NCBI GenBank assembly: GCA_903825465.1
Contig: CAIKAR010000005.1
Span: forward strand, 1-64,000
DNA from: an uncultured Hyphomicrobiales bacterium
GTDB lineage: Bacteria; Pseudomonadota; Alphaproteobacteria; Rhizobiales; Beijerinckiaceae
Length of the DNA: 64,000 nt
Reading direction: 5' to 3'
The position numbers and the translations under genes are program-made. Positions 11,612-29,351 of this stretch are shown here, piece by piece. The notes under the pieces were generated by a model, which did not search any database, was not told where the DNA came from, and saw only the letters and a list, made by a program, of their open reading frames with translations. Every line of letters begins with the position of its first letter. Positions within the stretch are counted from its first letter, which is position 1.

Positions 11612-13822
11612 TCAGTGCGCCAGCGGGTCCGGACGCATCTGGATTTTGAAGACCCGCGGGCGCTCGCCCTTGCCGGTCTCGCTGTGGAACATGGCGCGCG
11701 TGCCCGACGTGGTCCAGAGGCCGCGACCCTTCCAGCCCGCGTTCGGATCGTCGATGCGGCCATCGACGTTCTTCGTGAAGAAGCCCGCCGGATAGGGCAC
11801 ATGCAGCGTCACCATCTTGCCGTTGACGAGCGCCGTGATGGCCTCGCCGCCGTTGGTCATCGCCAGCGGAACGTCGTTGCCGAGACCAAGCGTGTTGTAG
11901 CGGTCCACCCACACGTAATAGGCGTGCTCGGACGACATGTCCGCGCCGTTCATTTTCGGCCCGGGGAACTCGTACAGCGTCCAGCCCTCGTAGCACTGCT
12001 CGCCGGTGACCGTGTTCGGGCCCTTCAGCGTTTCCTTGCATTTCGAGCGGTCGAAACTCGCCATCTGGCCGCTGGCGAGCGCCGTCCAGACAACGCCTTT
12101 GGTGTCGACATCGACGCCGCGCGGGCCAAACGTGCCCTTCGGCGGCTGGAACAACTCGGTCATGCCGGTGTTGACGGGGTCCGCGCCGGGGATGAAGCGG
12201 ATCAGGTAGCCCGGCTGCGACAAGCGGGAAAAGCCGATGTCCATCGACTGACCCCAGATGGAATCGTCGGCCGGGCTCGGCTGCACGCCGTAGAAGCCCG
12301 CTATCACGCGCTTCTGCTTGTTGGGATCGATCGGCGCCTTCTCGTCGACATAGTCGCCGCGCTTGCCAAGGCCCGGCACATCGACGATTTCCGGCGCCCA
12401 GCCCTGCGCCTTGTTCACGTCGCCGGTCTCCTTGAACACTTTCGTGTTGAGCCAGCCGATGGCGACGGCGGCCGGGCCGCCGGCGCTCGTCCACAACGTG
12501 TTGTCCTTGTCGTGGCCGAAATAGAGATGGTGCGTGCCGAAGCACGTGTTGATCAGCGAGAATTTCCGCGTCGCCGGATCGTAGTAGGACATTTCGCGGC
12601 CGGCGGCGGCGATCGGCGCGAGCTTCGCGGCGGGGAGCGCGTCGGGCCCGGCCTTGCAATCCGAAGGGTTCGCCAGCGGCCTGATGCGGGCGGTGAACCA
12701 AAGCTTGGCGTCCTGATCCATCATGACGTTGTGGATCGAGGTGTGGCTGTCCCAAATCGGATCCTCGCCCCAGAAGACCGACGGTCCCTTCGGGTCTTCC
12801 CGGGTGGTCGGGGTTTTCGGATCGGCGTAGGGATGCGTGATCTTCGACGCCTTGTTGGCGACCGGGTCGAGCACCGGCACGTCGTCGGTGGATTCCTCCG
12901 GCGAGCCGTAGATCAGGCCGTTCGCGTTGACCGTGGGGTTGCGCTTGTCGGTCGAAACCGCGTCATGCAGGTAGGTGAAGGGCTCGGCCCAGTCCCACAA
13001 CGTCACGACCATGTTGCGCTCGACGCCGGTGGGGCGCGACGGCTTGTCGGCGGGAAGCTCGCCCTTGGCGACGCGGTCCGTCCAGTCGCCGAAGTTTTGC
13101 AGGCCGAGGTCCGGCCCGAGGCGCGCGATGGCCGTGTTCATGCCCGCCATCGCCTGGCCGGACGCGATGCGGCGCATCCACATGTCGGCGGAAGTCTTGA
13201 ATTCCTTTTCTCCGACCGTTTCGGCCAGCGCCTGCACGTTGGGCGAGCGAACATTGCGCGAGCCGAGCGCGTGGCAGGACTGGCACGAGTTCTTGATGGT
13301 GTCGACCCAGTCGCCCTGGGTTTTCATGAACGTCGGAATGCCGTTGCCGGGATTCTTGTCCGTCTTCGTGCCCGGGAACTGGTCCACGGCCGGAATTTTC
13401 AGCATCGAGTACCAGTACATGCCGGGATAATACGCCGCGGCCGCGGCCGGCGTCGGCGCGATCTTCGCCGCGAGGTTCAGGTTCTTGCCGGGCTCGCCAT
13501 CGACCTTGTCGGAGTCGACAAGCCCATAGCCGCGCACCCACACTTTGTATTTCGCCTTCGGCAGATCGGGCATTTCATAACGCCCCTGATCGTCGGTGAC
13601 GACGATCTTCGCGTATTTCGTTGGGAGATCGGTGGTCTCGGCGACAACCCAGACGCCGGCTTCCGGCCCCGCGGAGCTGGTGACGACGCCGCCGATATCG
13701 GATGGGCCGATTGAGACGGCCGCCGGCGCGGCGTTCTGCGCCCGCGCGGAAATAATCGTCGTGGAGAGCAGCGCGGCGAAGGCCGCCGCCGTCAGGCCCG
13801 CGTGGCGCGTTTGGATGTGCAT
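11612..13822 (-). CDS. Exported carboxypeptidase-regulatory-like domain / mono-haem cytochrome c / beta-propeller-like protein (paralogue A)
   Basis: Signal peptide; IGGVVTSSAGPEAGVWVVAETTDL..DDQGRYEMPDLP; CQSCHALG; propeller-like GVDVDTKGVVWTALASGQMASFDRSKCK. Confidence 0.8.
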   Translation of the reverse strand: MHIQTRHAGLTAAAFAALLSTTIISARAQNAAPAAVSIGPSDIGGVVTSSAGPEAGVWVVAETTDLPTKYAKIVVTDDQGRYEMPDLPKAKYKVWVRGYGLVDSDKVDGEPGKNLNLAAKIAPTPAAAAAYYPGMYWYSMLKIPAVDQFPGTKTDKNPGNGIPTFMKTQGDWVDTIKNSCQSCHALGSRNVRSPNVQALAETVGEKEFKTSADMWMRRIASGQAMAGMNTAIARLGPDLGLQNFGDWTDRVAKGELPADKPSRPTGVERNMVVTLWDWAEPFTYLHDAVSTDKRNPTVNANGLIYGSPEESTDDVPVLDPVANKASKITHPYADPKTPTTREDPKGPSVFWGEDPIWDSHTSIHNVMMDQDAKLWFTARIRPLANPSDCKAGPDALPAAKLAPIAAAGREMSYYDPATRKFSLINTCFGTHHLYFGHDKDNTLWTSAGGPAAVAIGWLNTKVFKETGDVNKAQGWAPEIVDVPGLGKRGDYVDEKAPIDPNKQKRVIAGFYGVQPSPADDSIWGQSMDIGFSRLSQPGYLIRFIPGADPVNTGMTELFQPPKGTFGPRGVDVDTKGVVWTALASGQMASFDRSKCKETLKGPNTVTGEQCYEGWTLYEFPGPKMNGADMSSEHAYYVWVDRYNTLGLGNDVPLAMTNGGEAITALVNGKMVTLHVPYPAGFFTKNVDGRIDDPNAGWKGRGLWTTSGTRAMFHSETGKGERPRVFKIQMRPDPLAH

Positions 13823-13913: not shown

Positions 13914-16067
13914 TTAGTCCGCCAATGGATTGGGACGAACCTGCATGTGAACCGCGAGAGGCGTCGTGCCCTTGCCGCCTTCCTTCAGCCACGGCACGCG
14001 GTCGCCGCTGGCGACCCAGACTCCGCGGCCTTTCCAGCCGGCGTTGGCGTCGTCAATGCGGCCGTCAAGCCCCTTGGCGTAGAAGCTGAGCGGATAGGGG
14101 ACGCGCAACACGACCCACTTGCCGTTGACAAGCGCGAGCAAGGCGTCGTTCTCGTTGCCGGTCGAGATCGGAACGTCGTTGCCCAGGCCCAGCGTGTTGT
14201 GCTGATCGACCCAGGTGTAGTAGCTCGCCTCGGCGCTGTTTTTGCCGATGCCAGCGAAGCCCGGGCCGGGATATTGGTAGAAGCTCCAACCTTCGGGGCA
14301 TTGGTCGCCAGTCGCCTTCGGACCGTTCGCCGGCTCCTTGCACTTGCGCCGGTCGAACGCGCCAAGGTGGCCGCTCGCCAGCGACACCCAGACGACGCCC
14401 TTGCTGTCGATATCGCCGCCGCGCGGACCGAAATGCGCGCCGTCCTTCGGCAGATTGTAGGCTTCCGCCAGCGAGGTGTTCGGCGGATTGTCGCCGGGTA
14501 TCATACGCACCACGCCGCCCGGTCCGCCAAACACGCCGACCGTGCCCCAGACGGAGCTGTCGACCGGGCTTGGCATGACGGCGTAATAGCCGCCGTTCAG
14601 GCGCTTGTCGCGCTGGGGATCGACGGGATCCGACGGGCTGACATAGGCCTCCGGCTTGCCCGTCGCCTTGATGTCGAGGATCAACGGCGTCCAGCCCTGC
14701 GATTTCTCGGCGTCGCCGGTTTCCCGGAACTTCTTGGTGTCGAGCCAGCCCACGACCGGGCCGCCGCCGCTGGTCCAAAGCGTGTCGTTGGCGTCGAAGC
14801 CGAATTGCAGATGATGGTCGGTGAAACACGTGTCCACGAACGTGTATTTCATCGTTTTCATGTCGATGAAGCCCAACTGGCGCGGGCTTTTGTCGAGCGG
14901 GAACAATTTGGCGGAGGGATTTTCCGAGCCCTTTTTGCAGAACGCCGGATTATCGACCGCGCGTCCGGCGGCGGTCAGCCACAGGTTGCCCTGCTCGTCG
15001 AACATGGAGTTGTGGTTGTTGATCCGGTTCGACCAGTATTTCTCGTTGCCCCAATAGGCCGAGGGCTGGTTCGGCTTGAGTTCGGCCGCGTGGCCAGGCC
15101 CCAGCGATTCCGGCATGTCGGCGTCGCGCACCGGCACGTGGAATGTGCCGGCGGTGTTCGCGACCGGATCGACCCACGGGATGTCATCGGTGGAATATTC
15201 GGTCGAGCCCCAAACCTTGCCGTAGGCGTTGACGCTCGGGTTGCGCTTGTCGGTCGAGATGGCGTCGTGAACATAGGTGTGGGCGCTGCCAAATCCCCAC
15301 ATCGTCAGCACTCTGTTGCGCTCGACGCCCTGCGGCCGCGGCGGTTTTTCCTTCGGCAAATTCCCCTTGGCGACGCCGTCGGTCCACGCGCCGAAATACT
15401 TGAACGGCACGCCGGCGAGGTCGCCCGCCAGCGGCGTCACCATGTTCAGCGCCGACTGGCCGGACTGCACGCGGCGCTCCCACGCCTCCTCCCCCGTCTT
15501 GAAGTGCGAGAAGGCGGCTGGAAGCGTGCGCGTCGCCTCCTGTCCGAGCTGGTGGCAACCCACGCAGTCCCGGTTCTTCATTTTGGTGAGCCATTCCTCT
15601 TGCGTCACCTTCTCGGGAATGTCGCTCTTGCCGCCGAACTGGTCTTTGCCCGGGATGCCCAGCATCGAATACCAATAGATCGCCGGGTAGTAGTGCGCCG
15701 CTTCGGCCTCCGACGGCGCGACGACCGCCGTGATGTTCATGCTTTGATGCGGCACGCCGTGCATTTTCGGCGAATCCACGAGGCCGTAGCCGCGCGACCA
15801 CACCTGATAGTTCGCCTCGGGCAGATCGGGCAGAACGTAGCGGCCCTTGTCGTCGGTGACGACGATTTTGACGAAGCGCGTTCCCAGATCGTTGGTTTCG
15901 GCGACCACCCATACGCCGGCTTCAGGCCCCTTGGCGCTGGCGACGACGCCCGAAATGTCCTTCGGACCCGGGGCCGGCGCCTGCGCGCGCGCGCCGACGA
16001 TGGTGGACGACATGAGCGCCGCGACGAAAGCCGCCCGTCGCGCGTATAGGTTGATTGGTTCCGACAT
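13914..16067 (-). CDS. Carboxypeptidase-regulatory-like domain / mono-haem cytochrome c / beta-propeller-like protein (paralogue B)
   Basis: Same architecture as 11612-13822: ISGVVASAKGPEAGVWVVAETNDL; CVGCHQLG; GGDIDSKGVVWVSLASGHLGAFDRRKCKEP. Confidence 0.8.
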   Translation of the reverse strand: MSEPINLYARRAAFVAALMSSTIVGARAQAPAPGPKDISGVVASAKGPEAGVWVVAETNDLGTRFVKIVVTDDKGRYVLPDLPEANYQVWSRGYGLVDSPKMHGVPHQSMNITAVVAPSEAEAAHYYPAIYWYSMLGIPGKDQFGGKSDIPEKVTQEEWLTKMKNRDCVGCHQLGQEATRTLPAAFSHFKTGEEAWERRVQSGQSALNMVTPLAGDLAGVPFKYFGAWTDGVAKGNLPKEKPPRPQGVERNRVLTMWGFGSAHTYVHDAISTDKRNPSVNAYGKVWGSTEYSTDDIPWVDPVANTAGTFHVPVRDADMPESLGPGHAAELKPNQPSAYWGNEKYWSNRINNHNSMFDEQGNLWLTAAGRAVDNPAFCKKGSENPSAKLFPLDKSPRQLGFIDMKTMKYTFVDTCFTDHHLQFGFDANDTLWTSGGGPVVGWLDTKKFRETGDAEKSQGWTPLILDIKATGKPEAYVSPSDPVDPQRDKRLNGGYYAVMPSPVDSSVWGTVGVFGGPGGVVRMIPGDNPPNTSLAEAYNLPKDGAHFGPRGGDIDSKGVVWVSLASGHLGAFDRRKCKEPANGPKATGDQCPEGWSFYQYPGPGFAGIGKNSAEASYYTWVDQHNTLGLGNDVPISTGNENDALLALVNGKWVVLRVPYPLSFYAKGLDGRIDDANAGWKGRGVWVASGDRVPWLKEGGKGTTPLAVHMQVRPNPLAD

Positions 16068-16219: not shown

Positions 16220-18070
16220 TCAATCCTTGCGCCCCGACGTGTGGCCGCGGTCGCCCTCGCCCGGCGCGCCAACATCCACGCGCGCGTCGATGACATATTG
16301 ACCACCAGCCCGCACGACCTTCTCGCCGCGTTCCAGCGCCGCCGCGAAATCCACCGCGTTCATGACGGGCCCCTCGCCGTCGAGGCCTTGCGCCTTCGCC
16401 ATGGCGACAAGGTCGATCGTCGGCCGCACCATCTCCTGACCGACGAACTTGTTCTCGACAGGCCGGCCGCGCTGAACCGCCATGCGCTCCTGATGCGCGA
16501 CGTCGTTGTAGTAAACCTGGTTGTTGGCGATCACCACCAGCAGCGGTATGCCCATGTGCGCCGCCGTCCAGAAAGCGTTGCCGCCCATGGTGAAATCGCC
16601 GTCGCCGATGACCGTCATCGGCAGGCGCCCGGAGCCCTTGATCGCGAGCGCGGTGCCAATGGCGTTGGAAGGGCCCGAGCCGACGCCGCCGCCGCCGTCG
16701 AAGCCGGCGAAATCAAGCGGATGCTTGAAACTCACGGTGTCCGAAGGCCAGCCAAGCGCGTAGCCCGCCATCGTCACCTCGCGCTTGTCGCAGAAATCGC
16801 GCACGACGAGCGCGAGATCGCGCAGGCCCATGACGCCCTCGGGACGCGGCTTGCCCAGCGCCACGGAGACGCGCGGCGGCCACTTCGGCGCGGCCTTCGC
16901 ATTCTCCCCGCGCAGGCGCCGCACGGCGTCCAGCAACGGCCGCACGAGTTGGTCGGGCGAACTCAGAATCTTCAGATCCACCGGCGGCAGGCCGAAATGA
17001 TCCATGCTCCAGCCGTTGTGGAGATAATCGTCGACGGTGCAGTGGATGACCTTTGACGCGACATCCACGCCCTTGCCGAGCGTGAGTTCGAAGTGGCCCT
17101 TCAAATCCATCCAATCGAGCGACAGGACGACGTCGGCCTCTTTCACAATGTTCGCGGAGGCGGGCGACGGCCGGAAACGCGGTTCAACCAGATGCAGCGG
17201 ATGCTCCGTCGGAAACGCCGGCGCGAGCTTCATGTCGGTCAGCACGGCGGCGCCAATCGCTTCGGCGAGTTCCACGCGAAGGTCCCAGTCCTTGATCGAA
17301 CGCGACACACGCCCCATCAGGATGACCGGCTTCTTCGCGTCCACGAGCATCCGCGCGGCCTGTTCCACCACTTCTCCCGAAGGGGCCGGCGGCGACCCGG
17401 GTTGAAAACGCGCCATGTCGGGAAAACGGATTTCCTTTTCGAGCTTCGATTCCTGCAAGCCGACATCGAGGCACACGTAGGTCGGCCCGAAGGGATGCGT
17501 CGCGGCGATCTGCCAGGCCCGGGTGATCGACTCGACGGCGGCGCCGGCCGAGCGCGGCTCGTCGTCCCATTTCGTGTAGTGGCGGATCAGCGCGCCCTGG
17601 TCCTTCGACGTGTGGATCCAGTCGATCCAGGGCCGCCGCTCCTCCGCGTCGCCGGGGCCCGTCGCGCCGAGTATCAGCACGGGATCCCTGGCGCACCACG
17701 CGTTGAAAACCGCCATCGTCGCGTGCATGAGCCCGACGTTCGAATGCACGGCGACCGCCATCGGCTTTTCCGTGATCTTGGCGTAGCCCTGCGCGATGCC
17801 AACCGCGTGCTCCTCGTGCAGGCACACCATCATCTGGGGATCGCGGTTGCCGAGATAGTTCACGAGACTGTCGTGCAGGCCGCGATAGCTCGCGCCCGGC
17901 GTCAACGCGATAAAGCGCACGTCGAGGCGGCGAAGCGTTTCCGCCATCGCGTCGGAAGCCCATTCCAACCGCGCGTTGGAGTTTTTCAGCAAGGGATCCT
18001 TGCCGTCGAACCGCGCCGTCGCCAGCGCGACCTCCCTGACGCCCGCCTTGCCGCCCTCGTTCCCGCTCAT
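16220..18070 (-). CDS. Thiamine-pyrophosphate-dependent enzyme, acetolactate synthase/benzoylformate decarboxylase-like
   Basis: HEEHAVGIAQGYAKITEKPMAVAVHSNVGLMHA; ThDP motif VIGDGDFTMGGNAFWTAAHMGIPLLVVIANNQVYYND. Confidence 0.88.
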   Translation of the reverse strand: MSGNEGGKAGVREVALATARFDGKDPLLKNSNARLEWASDAMAETLRRLDVRFIALTPGASYRGLHDSLVNYLGNRDPQMMVCLHEEHAVGIAQGYAKITEKPMAVAVHSNVGLMHATMAVFNAWCARDPVLILGATGPGDAEERRPWIDWIHTSKDQGALIRHYTKWDDEPRSAGAAVESITRAWQIAATHPFGPTYVCLDVGLQESKLEKEIRFPDMARFQPGSPPAPSGEVVEQAARMLVDAKKPVILMGRVSRSIKDWDLRVELAEAIGAAVLTDMKLAPAFPTEHPLHLVEPRFRPSPASANIVKEADVVLSLDWMDLKGHFELTLGKGVDVASKVIHCTVDDYLHNGWSMDHFGLPPVDLKILSSPDQLVRPLLDAVRRLRGENAKAAPKWPPRVSVALGKPRPEGVMGLRDLALVVRDFCDKREVTMAGYALGWPSDTVSFKHPLDFAGFDGGGGVGSGPSNAIGTALAIKGSGRLPMTVIGDGDFTMGGNAFWTAAHMGIPLLVVIANNQVYYNDVAHQERMAVQRGRPVENKFVGQEMVRPTIDLVAMAKAQGLDGEGPVMNAVDFAAALERGEKVVRAGGQYVIDARVDVGAPGEGDRGHTSGRKD

Positions 18071-18249: not shown

Positions 18250-19020
18250 GTGAGGATTCTCTTTCTCAACCAGGCGCCCCTGGTGCCCAACAAGAATCCT
18301 CCCTACGACATCGCCGGCGTCACACGCCAATTGATGTCCTACGCGTCGCCCGGCACCACCATCGAACTCGGCTTTCCCGACAACTCCGACGGCGCCGGCG
18401 TGATGGAGGCCATAGGATCGCAGAGCAAGCTCAACGGCCTGCACCACATGATGGAAACGCCGGCGATCGTGCGCAAGATTTTCTGGGCGCAAGAGAACGG
18501 CTACGACGCCGTCATTTGCAGCAACACGTTCGATCCCGGCGTCGATGGCGGCAGGCTGGCGGTCGAGATACCCGTCATCGGCGTGCTGCGCGCCTCGATG
18601 CACGCCGCGCTGACGCTCGCCGACCGGGTCGGCGTCACCGTGCCGCTGCCTTCGCACATTCCCTACACCAGGCGCATCCTGCGCTCGTATGGGCTCGAAC
18701 AGTTCGTCGCCGGCATGGAAGCCATCGACGTCTACGTCGACGTGCAAAAGCGAAAAGCGGAAATTTTCGACATCGCCGTCAGGATTGTCCGCGACCTCGT
18801 TTCACGCGGCGCCGAAATCATTCTGCCGCTCGGCGGCGCGCTGATCCCCTACCAGGTCGATCCGGACGACATCGCGGCGGCGGCGGGCGTGCAGGTGCTC
18901 AACACCAAGGCCATCGGCATCCGCTTCGCCGAACTCTGCGTCAGCCGGAAATGGACGCAAAGCGCGATCACTTATCCGCGCGCCAAGCTGACCCTCGACG
19001 ACTTCGCCAAGAAGCTTTGA
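18250..19020 (+). CDS. Asp/Glu/hydantoin racemase-family protein (paralogue 1)
   Basis: ICSNTFDPGVDGGRLAVEIPVIG; EIILPLGGALIP; GTG start with upstream GAGG. Confidence 0.85.
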   Translation: MRILFLNQAPLVPNKNPPYDIAGVTRQLMSYASPGTTIELGFPDNSDGAGVMEAIGSQSKLNGLHHMMETPAIVRKIFWAQENGYDAVICSNTFDPGVDGGRLAVEIPVIGVLRASMHAALTLADRVGVTVPLPSHIPYTRRILRSYGLEQFVAGMEAIDVYVDVQKRKAEIFDIAVRIVRDLVSRGAEIILPLGGALIPYQVDPDDIAAAAGVQVLNTKAIGIRFAELCVSRKWTQSAITYPRAKLTLDDFAKKL

Positions 19021-19034
19021 GGCGGGAGAAGGCT

Positions 19035-20084
19035 TTGCGGACGCTCATTCCAGCCATCGTCGGAATACTCGCCGCCTTCGCCGCGGCGCCGGCGCGCGCC
19101 GCGGACGCCGTGGAAGCGTTCTACCGCGGCAAAACCATCCGCTTGATCGTCGGCGCGCCGGCGGGCGGCGGCTACGACCTTGTCGGCCGCACCGTGGCGG
19201 AGCGGCTCGGCGCGCATATTCCGGGCAACCCCAACGTGACCGTCGAGAACATGCCCGCCGCCAGCAGCCTGGTGATGAGCAACTACCTCTATAATTCCGC
19301 GCCGCGCGACGGCACAGCCATCGGCGTGCCCAGCAACGCGCTGCCGCTGGAGTCGCGCCTTCACCTCCTGACGCGCGCGGGGGGCGCGCTGAATTTCGAC
19401 TTTTCCAAATTCATATGGATCGGCAACGCCGCGCGGCAGCCACAGGTCTTGTTCGTCTGGCATGACGCCCCGGTCAAAACGGTCGAAGACCTCAAGACGT
19501 TTCCCGCGCTGATGGGCGCGATCAGCGTCGGCGCGGACAGCTTCACCCTGCCCTATGTGATGAACGCCGTCCTGCCCGCGAAGATGAAGATCATTCCCGG
19601 CTACGCGGGCATTGGCGAAACCCTGTTGGCGATGGAGCGCGGCGAGTTGCACGGGCACAGCGCCGGCCTCGCCAACATCGTCTCCGCCAAGCCCGACTGG
19701 ATTCGCGAGGGAAAGCTTCGCGTGCTCGCGCAATTCGGCCTGACGCGCCAACCGGAGCTGCCCGATGTTCCCACCGGCGACGAAATCGTCGACAACCCCG
19801 CCGACAAGGACATGCTGCGCTTCTTCGCGCTGAAATACGAGCTCGCCTATGGCTTCATCGCGCCGCCGGGCGTGCCTGGCGACCGCGCCGCGGCGCTGAA
19901 ACACGCGTTCGACGAGACCATGCGCGATCCCCTCTACATCGAAGCCGCGGCGCGCCTGTCGCTGCCGCGCAATTCCATGACATCGAACGAAGTCGACGCG
20001 ACCATCGCGAAAATAAACGCCACGCCCGAGCCGGTGGTCGCGCGCATGCGGGCGATCCTCGACACGCTGAACGAGAAAAAATAA
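19035..20084 (+). CDS. Bug/TctC-family tripartite tricarboxylate transporter substrate-binding protein
   Basis: GKTIRLIVGAPAGGGYDLVGRTVAERLGAHIPGNPNVTVENMPAASSL; signal peptide from TTG start 19035. Confidence 0.88.
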   Translation: MRTLIPAIVGILAAFAAAPARAADAVEAFYRGKTIRLIVGAPAGGGYDLVGRTVAERLGAHIPGNPNVTVENMPAASSLVMSNYLYNSAPRDGTAIGVPSNALPLESRLHLLTRAGGALNFDFSKFIWIGNAARQPQVLFVWHDAPVKTVEDLKTFPALMGAISVGADSFTLPYVMNAVLPAKMKIIPGYAGIGETLLAMERGELHGHSAGLANIVSAKPDWIREGKLRVLAQFGLTRQPELPDVPTGDEIVDNPADKDMLRFFALKYELAYGFIAPPGVPGDRAAALKHAFDETMRDPLYIEAAARLSLPRNSMTSNEVDATIAKINATPEPVVARMRAILDTLNEKK

Positions 20085-20095
20085 TGGAGACCTCC

Positions 20096-20869
20096 ATGCG
20101 CATTCTGGTGATCGACCAAGCCCCGCTGTCGGCGGAAAAGAACCCGCCCTACGACGTCGCGGCGATAACACGGCTGCTGCAATCCTACGCGTCGCCGGGC
20201 ACAACCATCGAAATAGGATTTCCGGAAAACTACGAGGGCGCGCGGCTGATGGATTCGATTGGCGCGCAAAGCAAGCTGAACGGGCTGCACCACATGATGG
20301 AAACGCCCGGCATCGTGCGCAAGATCTTCTGGGCGAAGGAGAACGGCTACGACGCCGTGATTTCGAGCAACACTTTCGACCCTGGCGTCGACGGCGGCCG
20401 CCTCGCGGTGGACATCCCCGTCATCGGCCTCAACCGCGCGTCGATGCACGCGGCGCTGACGCTCGCCGACAGGGTTGGCGTGACCGTGCCGCTGCCGAGC
20501 CACGTGCCCTACACGCGCCGCATCATGCGCGCCAACGGGCTTGAGCAGTTCATCGCGGGGATGCGGCCGATCGGCGTCTATGTGAACGCCGGCGAGCGCA
20601 AGGACGAGATCTTCGACATCATGGTGAAGTTGATCCGGCGGCTTGTCGACGAGGACGGCGCCGAAATCATCCTGCCGCTCGGCGGCGCGTTGATCCCCTA
20701 TATCGTCGATCCCGACGACCTGGCGAAGGCGACGGGCGTTCAGGTGCTGAACACCAAGGCCATCGGCATCCGGTTCGCCGAATTGTGCGTCAGCCGCAAA
20801 TGGACGCAAAGCGCGATCACTTATCCGCGCGCGCGGTTGGAACTGAAGGATTTCACGGCGAAACTCTAG
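20096..20869 (+). CDS. Asp/Glu/hydantoin racemase-family protein (paralogue 2)
   Basis: Highly similar to 18250-19020; ISSNTFDPGVDGGRLAVDIPVIG; EIILPLGGALIP; alternative ATG at 20084. Confidence 0.85.
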   Translation: MRILVIDQAPLSAEKNPPYDVAAITRLLQSYASPGTTIEIGFPENYEGARLMDSIGAQSKLNGLHHMMETPGIVRKIFWAKENGYDAVISSNTFDPGVDGGRLAVDIPVIGLNRASMHAALTLADRVGVTVPLPSHVPYTRRIMRANGLEQFIAGMRPIGVYVNAGERKDEIFDIMVKLIRRLVDEDGAEIILPLGGALIPYIVDPDDLAKATGVQVLNTKAIGIRFAELCVSRKWTQSAITYPRARLELKDFTAKL

Positions 20870-20890: not shown

Positions 20891-22021
20891 ATGACGAATT
20901 CCATCGACGCGCGGGAAAGCGATCTCAAGATCGCGAAGATCGAGGCCGTCCGGCTGCGCCTGCCGTTCAAGTCGGCCGTCTCCTACAAGTCGGTCAAACA
21001 GGCGGTCGGCGAATACGTGCTTGTCCGCCTGACCCTCGGCAACGGATTGCAAGGCGTCGCCGAAACCAATTGCCGACAGGAGCAGTCGGGCGAGGACGCG
21101 GTTTCGCTCGCCTATCAGGTCGAGGCGTTTTTCGGCCCGCGCCTTCTCGGCCGCGACCCCCTCGGCCACCTGTCGATTCTCCACGACATCAACGCCTGCA
21201 AGGCCTGTCCAGCGGCCAAGTCCCTCATCGACATCGCGCTGTGGGACTTGCGCGGCAAAGTCCTCGGCCAACCAGTCTGGCGGCTGCTTGGCGGCGAAAA
21301 GGCGAAGCCCATGCCGCTGACGTGGATCGCCCACGGCAACAGCGTGGAAGGTCAGATCGCCGAAGCTCGGAAAATGCGCGAGACCCGGGGATACCGGGGC
21401 CTCAAACTCAAAACGTGGCGGCGCTCGCGCGAGGATTTGCGCATGATCGAAGGCGTGCGCAAGGCGGTGGGCGACGATGTCTTCCTCACCATCGACTGCA
21501 ACGGAACCTACGCGGAGTCGGAGGCGCGGGCCATCCTGTCGCGCGCGGTGGATTTCGACGTGCGCTTCATCGAGGAGCCATGCGACTTCAAGGACATCGC
21601 GCGGCAGGCGGACATGGCGACGGCGCTGCCGATCCCGATGCTCGGCGACCAATGCTGCGAGACGCTGGCCGACGTCAACGCGCATCTGCGCGCGCGCAGC
21701 ATCGGCGGCGTCAGCGTGAAGATGCGGCGAACCGGCGTGACGCAATCGCTCAAGATCATTTCGCTGTGCGAGGCGGCGAACGTGCCGGCGCTGATCGGCA
21801 CGGATTCCGAAAGCCGCCTCGCCGCCATGCCGCGGGCGCATCTGCACGCCGCCATTCCGCATCTCGCCGACCTGCCCGCCGAAACGCACTTTTACGACAA
21901 GCTTGACGACGACGTGTTCATGGGCGATTTTAAATTCGCCGATGGGGCCTTGACGCCGTCCGACGCGCCCGGATTCGGCGCCGAAATCGACGAGGACAAG
22001 CTGCGAAAGTACGCGTTTTGA
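20891..22021 (+). CDS. Mandelate racemase/muconate lactonizing enzyme family protein
   Basis: GLKLKTW (KxK), TIDCNGTY, FIEEPCDF, GDQCCETL, GGVSVKM: full set of enolase-superfamily MLE-type residues. Confidence 0.88.
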   Translation: MTNSIDARESDLKIAKIEAVRLRLPFKSAVSYKSVKQAVGEYVLVRLTLGNGLQGVAETNCRQEQSGEDAVSLAYQVEAFFGPRLLGRDPLGHLSILHDINACKACPAAKSLIDIALWDLRGKVLGQPVWRLLGGEKAKPMPLTWIAHGNSVEGQIAEARKMRETRGYRGLKLKTWRRSREDLRMIEGVRKAVGDDVFLTIDCNGTYAESEARAILSRAVDFDVRFIEEPCDFKDIARQADMATALPIPMLGDQCCETLADVNAHLRARSIGGVSVKMRRTGVTQSLKIISLCEAANVPALIGTDSESRLAAMPRAHLHAAIPHLADLPAETHFYDKLDDDVFMGDFKFADGALTPSDAPGFGAEIDEDKLRKYAF

Positions 22022-22998
22022 CCGGCCGCCCGAAGACGAACCTCGCGATCATCGGCCTCGGTGGATGGGGGCGCAAGCTCGTCGAATCCGTACAAGGCGA
22101 ATCGACCGACGTTGGTTTTTCCGCGGCGATCGTCCGGCGGACGGACTCGTCCGAGGCCTTCGCGAAGGCGCATGGATTGCGGCTGGAGACGGACATCGCG
22201 TCCACTCTCGCCGACCCCTCGATAGCGGGCGTCGTGTCGAGCGGCCCGGCGCATCTGCACGCCGTTCACGGCATCGCCGCGATGGAGGCGGGAAAACCCG
22301 TTCTCGCCATCAAGCCGCTGGCGCTGACAGCGGCCGACGCGGCGAAAATGGCCGCCGTGAGCGAGGCGAAAGGCGTTTTACTGGCGCTCGGATACAACCG
22401 CTGCTTCTATCCCAACGTCGCGGAAATGCGCCGCCGCCTCGCCGCCGGAGCGCTGGGCGACCTCGTCCACGCCGAGGGCGATTTCTGCGTCGACCGCTAC
22501 CGTTCGCTGAAGGGCGCGCACTGGAAGGCCAATCCCGAGAACTCGCCGGCGGGCGGCCTCGCCGACCACATGCTCTATCTCGCCATCGACACGCTGGGCG
22601 CCATCGACGAAGTCCACGCGCTCGCCTTCCGCCACCACTCCGACAACGAACTCGCCGACGCGACGGCGGTGTTGTTGCGGACAAAAGGCCGCCAATCCGC
22701 GTTGCTCACGGCCATCGGCGTCACGTCCGACTACTACCGCTTCCAGGTTTTCGGCGCGAAAGGCTGGATCGAAATCCGCGACGACACCGGCTTCGCGTTC
22801 CAGCCGCTGAAGGGGCCGCGCGAGGACATCGTGTTCGACGCCATCGACGCCGAGCGCGCGGAAGTCGAGGCGTTCGCGGCGGCGATCCGCGGCGAGCGAA
22901 TCTTCCCCGTGCCGGTCCGCGACGCGGTCCACGGCGTCGCCGCGCTCGAGGCCATCGGCCGCTCCGCGATTGAAAACAGGCCCATGCTGGTTGAATAA
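22018..22998 (+). CDS. Gfo/Idh/MocA family oxidoreductase
   Basis: NLAIIGLGGWGRKLVESV; GKPVLAIKPLALTAADAAKM; TTG start overlapping upstream stop. Confidence 0.85.
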   Translation: MTGRPKTNLAIIGLGGWGRKLVESVQGESTDVGFSAAIVRRTDSSEAFAKAHGLRLETDIASTLADPSIAGVVSSGPAHLHAVHGIAAMEAGKPVLAIKPLALTAADAAKMAAVSEAKGVLLALGYNRCFYPNVAEMRRRLAAGALGDLVHAEGDFCVDRYRSLKGAHWKANPENSPAGGLADHMLYLAIDTLGAIDEVHALAFRHHSDNELADATAVLLRTKGRQSALLTAIGVTSDYYRFQVFGAKGWIEIRDDTGFAFQPLKGPREDIVFDAIDAERAEVEAFAAAIRGERIFPVPVRDAVHGVAALEAIGRSAIENRPMLVE

Positions 22999-23047: not shown

Positions 23048-24511
23048 ATGCAAGACGACGTCGCCCGCTCGTGGCTCGGCAAATACAACCGGCCGCACCG
23101 CGACCTCCGCGAATTCATCGAGCGGGCCGAGCGCGAGGGCGAGATTCTGCGCGCGTCGGGCGCCGACTGGGATCTCGAAATGGGCGCGCTGGCGGAAATC
23201 GTCAACCACAAGCACGCGGAACCCAAGGCGATCCTGTTCGAGAACATCAAGGATTATCCGGGCTATTCGGCGATCTCCGGCCTGTCGAACTCGTCGAAGC
23301 GGCTCGCGCTGACGCTCGGTTTTCCCATGCCGCGCAACGCGCTCGACGTGGTCACCGCCTACCGCGACCGCATGAAGCATCACAAGCCCATTCCGCCGAC
23401 GACCGTCGCGACGGGGCCGGTGTTGGAGAACATCCAGCGCGGCGACGACGTCGATCTGTTCAAATTCCCGGTTCCGCGCCTGCACGAGAAGGACGGGGGC
23501 CGCTACATTGGCACCGACGATCTCGTCATCATGCGCGACCCGGAGGGCGGCTGGGTCAACGCGGCGACCTACCGCGTCATGGTCCACGACGCCAAAACGG
23601 TGGGCATCTGGATATCGCCGGGCAAACAGGGCCGGCAAATCCGCGACAAGTATTTCAAGGCCGGCAAGCCGTGTCCCGTGCTGATCTGCTGCGGGCAGGA
23701 CCCGCTGCTGTTTCTCGCGGCCAACCACGAAGTGCGCTACGGCGTTTCCGAAATCGACTACGCTGGCGGCCATCGCGGCGAGCCGTTCGAGGTCGTGCCA
23801 AGCGAAGTTTACGGCCTGCCCATGCCCGCGAGCGCGGAAATCGTGCTCGAAGGCGCGCTTCACGCCAATGACGCGAGGCTCGAAGGGCCGTTCGGCGAAT
23901 TCACCGGCTATTACGCGAGCGCGCCGAGCGAACAGCCCGTCATGCGCGTCGAGCGCGTCTATCACAGGAACAATCCAATCCTCGGAATCGCCTGCCCGAT
24001 GCGCCCGCCAACCGACGTGTCGTTCGGCAAGTGCATCGTGAAAGCCGGCATGATCTGGGACGAGATGGAGCGGGCGGGCATTTCGGGCATCAAGGGCGTG
24101 TGGTGCCACGAGGCCGGCGTCGCGCGGCTTTTCAACGTGATTTCGCTGAAGCAGGCGTACGCCGGGCACGCCAAGCAGGCGCTGCTGGTGGCGGCCGGCT
24201 GCCAGTCCGGCGCCTACGTCGGCCGTTTCACGATCGTCGTCGACGACGACGTCGATCCAACGGACATGTTCGACGTGATCTGGGCGATGTCGACGCGCTG
24301 CGATCCGATCGAAGACATCGACTTCGTCCGCAAGATGTGGAGCGGCCCGCTCGACCCGATGGCGCCAGCGTCCAACCAGACCTCGCGCGCGCTGATCGAC
24401 GCTTGCCGGCCGTTCGACCGGTTGAAGGATTTTCCGGAAGTGGCGAGCGCGCCACGCGAGTTGATCGACCGCGTCTCGGCGAAGTTCGCCGATCTTGTCG
24501 GGAAGATTTGA
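23048..24511 (+). CDS. UbiD-family (prFMN-type) decarboxylase
   Basis: DLREFIERAEREGEILRASGADWDLEMGALAEI; RYIGTDDLVIMRDPEGGWVNAATYR; EGPFGEFTGYY. Confidence 0.92.
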   Translation: MQDDVARSWLGKYNRPHRDLREFIERAEREGEILRASGADWDLEMGALAEIVNHKHAEPKAILFENIKDYPGYSAISGLSNSSKRLALTLGFPMPRNALDVVTAYRDRMKHHKPIPPTTVATGPVLENIQRGDDVDLFKFPVPRLHEKDGGRYIGTDDLVIMRDPEGGWVNAATYRVMVHDAKTVGIWISPGKQGRQIRDKYFKAGKPCPVLICCGQDPLLFLAANHEVRYGVSEIDYAGGHRGEPFEVVPSEVYGLPMPASAEIVLEGALHANDARLEGPFGEFTGYYASAPSEQPVMRVERVYHRNNPILGIACPMRPPTDVSFGKCIVKAGMIWDEMERAGISGIKGVWCHEAGVARLFNVISLKQAYAGHAKQALLVAAGCQSGAYVGRFTIVVDDDVDPTDMFDVIWAMSTRCDPIEDIDFVRKMWSGPLDPMAPASNQTSRALIDACRPFDRLKDFPEVASAPRELIDRVSAKFADLVGKI

Positions 24512-27589: not shown

Positions 27590-28621
27590 TCAACCGCCCG
27601 CGAGAACTTCGCGCAGCTGGTCAACGACGTCATTGGGCGCTTCGCGCAAACCGTCGAGGAGACGGACGATCTCGGCGCCGCTAACGGGGCTTACGTCGAT
27701 ATTGATGGCTTTCGCCTCGGCCAAAAACTCCGGGTCGCGCATCGTATCGTCGAAAGCTCGGCGCAATAGGGCGAGACGCGGGGCGATGACGCCGGGCGGC
27801 GCCATCAATGGACGCGCGAGTTTATATTTCAAGCCGAACATGCGCAGCATCTCTCGCGAGTTGACGTTGTCGGCCAGCTCGATCGCGGTGGGAACATTCG
27901 GCATGCCGCGCGCTCGTTCGGATCCAAACTGCGCGAGAAGAGTGATTTTCCCCTCGCGAAGCCAATCCGCCTTCGTCACGAAGACATTTGTCGAGCCCGT
28001 GCTGTTTCCCTGCGCTTCTCCACGCTCAATGGCCTCGAATATTTCGTTTTGTCCCTGATAGCCGGTGACGATATCGATGTTGGCCCCGATGAGGCGTTTT
28101 AGAAGCTGGGGCGCCGAGTAATTGTCGGCGGTGGGTCCGGTCGCGCCCACGATGACCTTGTTTTGCTTGAGCATCGCGATGCTGTTGGCGGCGGTCGACA
28201 GCGTGAAAAACACCTGAGGGTCCTCGACGGGAGAGCCGATCCAACCGAATTTTTCCGCGTCGAACGCGACGTTTCCGCCGTCCCTGGACATCAATTTCAG
28301 GCGGGATTCAACGGGCACGTTGTTGGTTGGCATTCCAATGACCAAGCCGTCCCGCGGCGCGGATCGATAGAGGTAATTCGCCATGATAAGCCCCGTCGCG
28401 CCGGGCATGTTCTCGACGACAATGGCCGGAGACCCCGGAATGTGGCGGGCCATGTGGATCGCGAGCACGCGCGCCATTATATCGTATCCGCCGCCCGCGG
28501 CGGCGCCGACCACGAGCCGAATTGTCTTTCCCTGATAAAACCCCGGGCTTTCCTGCGCGTGAGAGACGGCCGCCGGCGCGATGAGCGCCATGCCTATCGC
28601 CAACAATTTCACGATGCTCAT
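27590..28621 (-). CDS. Bug/TctC-family substrate-binding protein
   Basis: GKTIRLVVGAAAGGGYDIMARVLAIHMARHIPGSPAIVVENMPGATGL; signal peptide from ATG 28621. Confidence 0.85.
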   Translation of the reverse strand: MSIVKLLAIGMALIAPAAVSHAQESPGFYQGKTIRLVVGAAAGGGYDIMARVLAIHMARHIPGSPAIVVENMPGATGLIMANYLYRSAPRDGLVIGMPTNNVPVESRLKLMSRDGGNVAFDAEKFGWIGSPVEDPQVFFTLSTAANSIAMLKQNKVIVGATGPTADNYSAPQLLKRLIGANIDIVTGYQGQNEIFEAIERGEAQGNSTGSTNVFVTKADWLREGKITLLAQFGSERARGMPNVPTAIELADNVNSREMLRMFGLKYKLARPLMAPPGVIAPRLALLRRAFDDTMRDPEFLAEAKAINIDVSPVSGAEIVRLLDGLREAPNDVVDQLREVLAGG

Positions 28622-28625
28622 GACG

Positions 28626-29351
28626 CTAGTCCCTCGCGAGCGAGGCAAGCAGCTTGCCATGGCCCCGCACGGGCGCGCCAATATTCAAAGCTTTGAACGC
28701 GCAGAAAAAGTTGGCGTGCGTGTACGCTATGACTGTTTTGCCGGTGTCTTCTTCAAGCGCTCTCACCGCTTGAGCGCCCTGCCACTGAGGGCAAGGAAGG
28801 TAAATGGTGTCGCAGTCAGGGGAGCGGGAGGCGACGCGGCGCGCAAATCGATATATCTCTTGAGGCGTTTGGTTCTGAATTTCCTTAAACGGCATATTCG
28901 TCCCTTCAAGGCCGACAACATCGAAGCCGAAGGCCTTGAAATAAGCAGCCATGGCGTCATTGTGTTCGGGCGGATAGCAAGACGCCATGACGATCCGATT
29001 GGCGTTCATATGTCGGAGCGCCTCGACAGCCGATCGCACGCCCGTCGTCGCGCCAACCCCTGACACAGTCTCGATTTCCTTTATTATCGTCTCTTCGAAG
29101 CCCTTGCCACGCATAACGACGAGCGGACCACCGCCGTGTATGATGTAATCAACCTTGCGGGAGCCTAGGTAAGCGGCTGATTCCTTTACTTGGGCCAATC
29201 CCTTCTCGAAACCGTCATTTGTCCAATTCTCGATGGCGCAAGCGCTGCTGACCAATCCAACGCCGTCGGGCGCGAAACGATAAAACTCATAGGCTAAAAC
29301 CTCGATGACAGAAGGCGAAATATACCCTATTCGCGCGCGCCAACCGAACAT
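28626..29351 (-). CDS. Maleate isomerase/arylmalonate decarboxylase-like protein
   Basis: ARIGYISPSVIEVLAYEFYRFAPDGV; YIIHGGGPLVV; TIYLPCPQWQGAQAVRALEEDTGKTVIAYTHANF. Confidence 0.8.
   Translation of the reverse strand: MFGWRARIGYISPSVIEVLAYEFYRFAPDGVGLVSSACAIENWTNDGFEKGLAQVKESAAYLGSRKVDYIIHGGGPLVVMRGKGFEETIIKEIETVSGVGATTGVRSAVEALRHMNANRIVMASCYPPEHNDAMAAYFKAFGFDVVGLEGTNMPFKEIQNQTPQEIYRFARRVASRSPDCDTIYLPCPQWQGAQAVRALEEDTGKTVIAYTHANFFCAFKALNIGAPVRGHGKLLASLARD

Follow-up and report, generated by a model that had tools for sequence, protein, structure and literature searches.

Two cysteines are the hallmark of the Asp/Glu racemase superfamily, and a pair of racemase-like genes in an uncultured Hyphomicrobiales bacterium (Beijerinckiaceae) raises the question of what such proteins do when these residues are missing. 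The window, a stretch of 64,000 nucleotides from contig CAIKAR010000005.1, was described in an initial annotation as carrying twin racemase-family paralogues on either side of a Bug gene, the first having kept one catalytic cysteine and the second neither. The arrangement of the genes is as described, with two PF01177 genes that are 78% identical, both on the forward strand, and a TctC/Bug gene between them (Table 1), and the peptides that had been quoted from them are found in the translations. The account of the cysteines is a different matter, as set out below.

The twin genes and their probable operon

Both twins, here P1 and P2, are assigned to a subfamily designated F1. Against the PF01177 profile they score 69.9 and 66.4 bits respectively where the curated cut-off is 31, which places both in the family, and PF01177 is the sole domain of each, the profile search having found no DNA-binding or signalling domain. 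No model in an NCBIfam profile search names either twin.

Table 1. Genes of the window discussed in the text
Feature	Position	Strand	Profile evidence	Remarks
Large protein, CarboxypepD_reg-like start	11612-13822	-		CXXCH haem motif
Paralogue of the preceding, CarboxypepD_reg-like start	13914-16067	-		CXXCH haem motif
ThDP (TPP) enzyme, benzoylformate-decarboxylase-like	16220-18070	-	PF02776/PF02775	Divergent from P1
P1, racemase-fold twin 1 (F1)	18250-19020	+	PF01177, E 3.5e-19	GTG start, 256 aa
TctC/Bug periplasmic binding protein	19035-20084	+	PF03401, E 6.7e-15	TTG start, signal peptide visible
P2, racemase-fold twin 2 (F1)	20096-20869	+	PF01177, E 3.9e-18	ORF open from ATG 20084; 257-261 aa by start chosen (20084/20096)
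Enolase-superfamily enzyme, muconate-lactonizing subgroup (MR/MLE)	20891-22021	+	PF13378/PF02746	KxK and second Lys readable in sequence
Gfo/Idh/MocA-type NAD(P) dehydrogenase	22018-22998	+	PF01408	4-bp overlap with MR/MLE gene
UbiD-family (de)carboxylase	23048-24511	+	PF01977, E 6e-65; TIGR00148 above its cut-off	TTG 22970 a possible alternative start
Bug gene	27590-28621	-		Adjacent to the following
AMDase-family protein	28626-29351	-	PF17645, E 4e-28	

From P1 onwards the genes are tightly spaced (14 bp, an overlap, 21 bp, the 4-bp overlap and about 50 bp, from the coordinates), which suggests that the six genes from P1 to UbiD form a single operon. The solved structures nearest to the MR/MLE enzyme are 2qde, an unnamed MR/MLE protein, and the muconate cycloisomerase 3dg3, and those closest to the TPP enzyme are benzoylformate decarboxylases of the 4mq5/1bfd family (E about 1e-22). 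The module of TPP enzyme, P1, Bug gene, P2 and MR/MLE enzyme recurs at two other loci (L007 and L008) and in part at a third (L009); the TPP enzyme (cluster 14) adjoins at all three, and the MR/MLE enzyme (cluster 5) is found at L007, L008 and L035. Tandem twins in one operon are therefore known from three genomes, that of the window included.

The two large proteins upstream are paralogues of one another with no clear NCBIfam match, the second of them having no solved relative, and their homologues lie near F1 genes at three loci (L007, L012 and L014). Further downstream, the protein of the arylmalonate decarboxylase (AMDase) family has a Gly-rich IHGGGPL at the first catalytic position and a cysteine at the second (YLPCPQ), as in AMDase.

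Catalytic positions and active site

The positions of the catalytic cysteines were located with three aligners: HMMER against 3QVJ, HHalign against 18 canonical hydantoin racemases (probability 99.6) and a 98-sequence MAFFT alignment. In all three the first cysteine, C79 of allantoin racemase, falls on N92 in both twins, and since the spacing from D86 to D95 is nine residues in F1 and in canonical racemases alike, this pairing needs no gap. The second cysteine (C184) falls on G195 in both, within a conserved PLGGALIPY; one HMMER alignment pairs it with L194 instead, which is still not a cysteine. Throughout F1 position 92 is Asn and position 195 is Gly (53 of 53 sequences at each), so that neither cysteine is present in any F1 member, whereas both are found in each of the 21 canonical sequences aligned.

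The residue previously read as the surviving first cysteine of P1 is C90 of AVICSNTF, which lies two residues before N92 and is the counterpart of Ile77 in allantoin racemase. It varies within F1 (32 Ser, 10 Gln, six Gly and five Cys among 53), and with the alignment placing the catalytic cysteine at N92 we rule it out as a retained catalytic residue. Alignment to racemase structures thus bears out one half of the earlier reading, that P1 has LGGAL where canonical racemases have LGCAG, and overturns the other, as P1 has no first cysteine either. The supposed contrast of one cysteine against none disappears, both twins being without both, and the difference between C90 and S90 is therefore not a step in catalytic loss. 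The two-cysteine mechanism of the fold is, to judge from the sequences, closed to P1 and P2.

A further cysteine, C230 of AELCVS, is invariant in F1, and its occupation of the active site would have left room for normal racemase chemistry. The AlphaFold2 (AF2) secondary structure puts it past the midpoint of the final helix (219-232), whose N-terminus faces the cleft and is apparently a long way off, and it is therefore disfavoured as a replacement.

The AF2 model of P1, built on a 45-sequence alignment (pLDDT 84.9, pTM 0.86), has the two-domain racemase fold, its closest PDB entries being the allantoin racemase structures 3qvk and 3qvj (TM 0.75-0.80), with further matches to 5lg5, 2eq5 and AMDase (TM about 0.6 for AMDase). 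The rest of the active site has changed along with the cysteines. The residues that contact substrate in KpAllR are Asn12, Thr118 and Thr119 (PMC12661438), and in F1 these are replaced by A9 (Ala or Ser in the subfamily), V131 and P132. Where canonical racemases have a conserved E101, F1 has an invariant R114; their Asp/Glu just ahead of the last helix is N218 in F1, with T219 and K220, both invariant, coming next. F1 therefore has an invariant set of its own, consisting of SNT (91-93), R114, LGG (194-196) and NTK (218-220). In the AF2 model residues 7, 91-92, 114, 194-196 and 218-220 lie directly after core strands or at helix N-termini. Such strand ends and helix N-termini are the usual active-site edge of the racemase fold, and on this predicted secondary structure the F1 invariants should face the usual cleft.

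Distribution, relatives and gene neighbourhoods

F1 is rare. It was found at 40 loci in GTDB genome contigs, mainly in metagenome-assembled genomes (MAGs) of Rhizobiales/Beijerinckiaceae together with a few Deltaproteobacteria, and most of these loci are single-copy. Searches of sampled genomes at E below 1e-40 found it in two of 386 others from the class and in none of 398 from the phylum, it occurs in a minority of genomes of the same genus, and the relatives found in the plasmid collection were all distant, below 60% identity.

In a tree with 51 rows of F1 and 15 of a sister family, F2, each of the two is split off by a branch with 100/99 support, and under midpoint rooting they join against the hydantoin racemases (100/99), some long branches making the deeper joins unsure. 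Since the window, L007 and L008 are represented in the P1 clade as well as in the P2 clade, the duplication is older than the divergence of these genomes. Purifying selection acts on both twins, as dN is far below dS in orthologue pairs between the window and L007 (dN 0.056 and dS 1.58 for P1, dN 0.071 and dS 0.81 for P2). The fixed differences from P1 to P2 include N7D, C90S, V112L and L113N, and positions 7, 112 and 113 are predicted from the model to lie on the cleft side. The proposal that the twins have a maintained but changed function is upheld by these low dN values, by the invariant residues peculiar to F1 and by the two-cysteine mechanism being unavailable.

F2, recognised by PLGMLDLG...ITQCP (for example L004, L005, L006 and L039), resembles F1 in grouping against the hydantoin racemases, in having the same loop insertion and in lacking the canonical cysteines, with Gly at both positions. 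Unlike F1 it has one cysteine, displaced by four residues to the position of I199 in P1, in all 16 F2 sequences. F1 and F2 genes are found convergent, tail to tail, in six distinct places (L012/L093/L105, L014, L039, L041, L042 and L085/L116), and at three of these the matched stretches lie only some 30-50 bp apart; a functional link between the two families is possible. The twins of the window have no F2 neighbour. Three hydantoin-racemase-like sequences (L068, L071 and L080) likewise have no cysteine at either position (AAFGDPG; LAGG, PGGA or IGGG); they differ from F1 in having Ala at the first position and form a separate lineage, so the cysteines have been lost more than once.

The neighbours of F1 vary widely between genomes and include MmgE/PrpD, an FAD dehydrogenase, a Rieske protein of LigXa type, EutA, QPRT, an ADP-forming CoA ligase and AMDase; a single common pathway read from these neighbourhoods was therefore rejected. 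The Bug gene next to the twins also tells us little about function, given that the 3.9 Mb genome of the window has 135 TctC/Bug genes (with two TctA membrane components and nine AMDase-family genes). AMDase-family genes adjoin F1 at three loci (L018, L022 and L027), and AMDase gene clusters are reported to contain TTT transporters and MR/MLE genes, the latter in 61% (PMC4996985). Together with the resemblances of the TPP and MR/MLE enzymes, these associations support a putative role for the twins in carboxylate or aromatic-acid catabolism.

Two other associations were observed among the neighbourhoods. At four loci (L020, L021, L026 and L045) F1 lies near a Cupin_2 protein and EutA, which serves to reactivate ethanolamine ammonia-lyase, and NMT1-like proteins (PF09084) of one cluster adjoin F1 at L003 and L043 and F2 at L005.

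Possible roles and comparison with known enzymes

The job of the twins almost certainly differs from racemisation by two cysteines. On balance we consider it somewhat more likely than not that they are two specialised copies of the rare F1 subfamily, acting as enzymes independent of cysteine. The initial annotation left the choice between lyase, isomerase, decarboxylase, heteromer and sensor, and the operon context together with the invariant residues makes us lean towards an enzyme. Under this scheme a carboxylate-bearing substrate, sensed or imported with the Bug protein assisting, would bind through R114, K220 and the SNT and NT groups in the same cleft between the domains, and would undergo a step of lyase, decarboxylase or isomerase type in which the proton donor might be Lys220, His66 or water, with no racemisation through a two-cysteine 1,1-proton transfer. 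P1 and P2 would take separate yet related substrates or stereo-forms, because the fixed differences between them include pocket positions 7, 112 and 113. A more specific version, which we offer tentatively, is that F1 constitutes a cofactor-free subfamily with an Asn/Arg/Lys site in place of the thiols, carrying out a decarboxylation, C-C cleavage or isomerisation new to the fold, with the twins specific for substrate or stereochemistry.

An alternative that we think unlikely, if deserving serious attention, is that the twins are non-catalytic pseudoenzymes for ligand binding or regulation, with the cleft acting as a sensor or carrier of the operon substrate. Both acid/base residues are lost while the cleft is conserved, a conserved pocket is also compatible with a binding protein, a periplasmic binding protein gene is adjacent and the F1 neighbourhoods are diverse, all of which would fit. 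However, a single PF01177 domain with no DNA-binding or signalling partner domain is not what a regulator would lead one to expect, and the new invariant polar set (SNT, R114 and NTK) exceeds the needs of binding.

It would seem improbable that P1 and P2 are halves of an obligate heteromer with a shared active site. The tandem arrangement in one operon in three genomes and the fixed differences between the twins agree with such a pairing, as does the tail-to-tail association of F1 with the distantly related F2 (with its displaced cysteine) in six other places, but most F1 loci are single-copy, so that a twin is not required by F1, and each monomer of the racemase fold normally forms its own active site. 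That the twins are ordinary hydantoin, Asp or Glu racemases with C90, S91 or C230 as a substitute is more improbable still: in the alignment to aspartate racemase 2dx7, and there alone, a one-residue gap pairs the catalytic Cys with S91 and its Asn-Thr with N92-T93, and C230 is invariant, yet C90 is variable, no Cys, Ser or Thr lies near the second position, the substrate-contact residues are replaced as well, and C230 is predicted to lie far along the last helix.

A conserved subfamily without cysteines and with an invariant site of its own offers a natural experiment on the chemistry open to the fold after loss of its thiols, and caution is warranted where such genes are automatically named as racemases. 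In the open-access literature we found no described member of the superfamily that has neither cysteine. A structure deposited as an allantoin racemase of Pseudomonas fluorescens (5LFD/5LG5) has Gly at the first cysteine position (AGYGEHG) and keeps LGCGGM at the second.

Finally, two known systems allow the twins to be placed. With allantoin/hydantoin racemase (HpxA/KpAllR, 3QVJ/3QVK; PF01177) they share the fold, the DPG...R and H motifs and clear homology; they differ from it in the replacement of C79 by N92, C184 by G195 and E101 by R114, in Ala, Val and Pro for N12, T118 and T119, and in about three extra residues in the second loop. AMDase (PF17645) belongs to the same superfamily as F1, and its gene clusters also bring TTT and MR/MLE genes together (PMC4996985), although the PF17645 profile has no match in P1 or P2. 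AMDase has one cysteine only, with Gly74 at the first position and Cys188 as the proton donor at the second. F1 does not have this combination, as there is no cysteine in its second loop.
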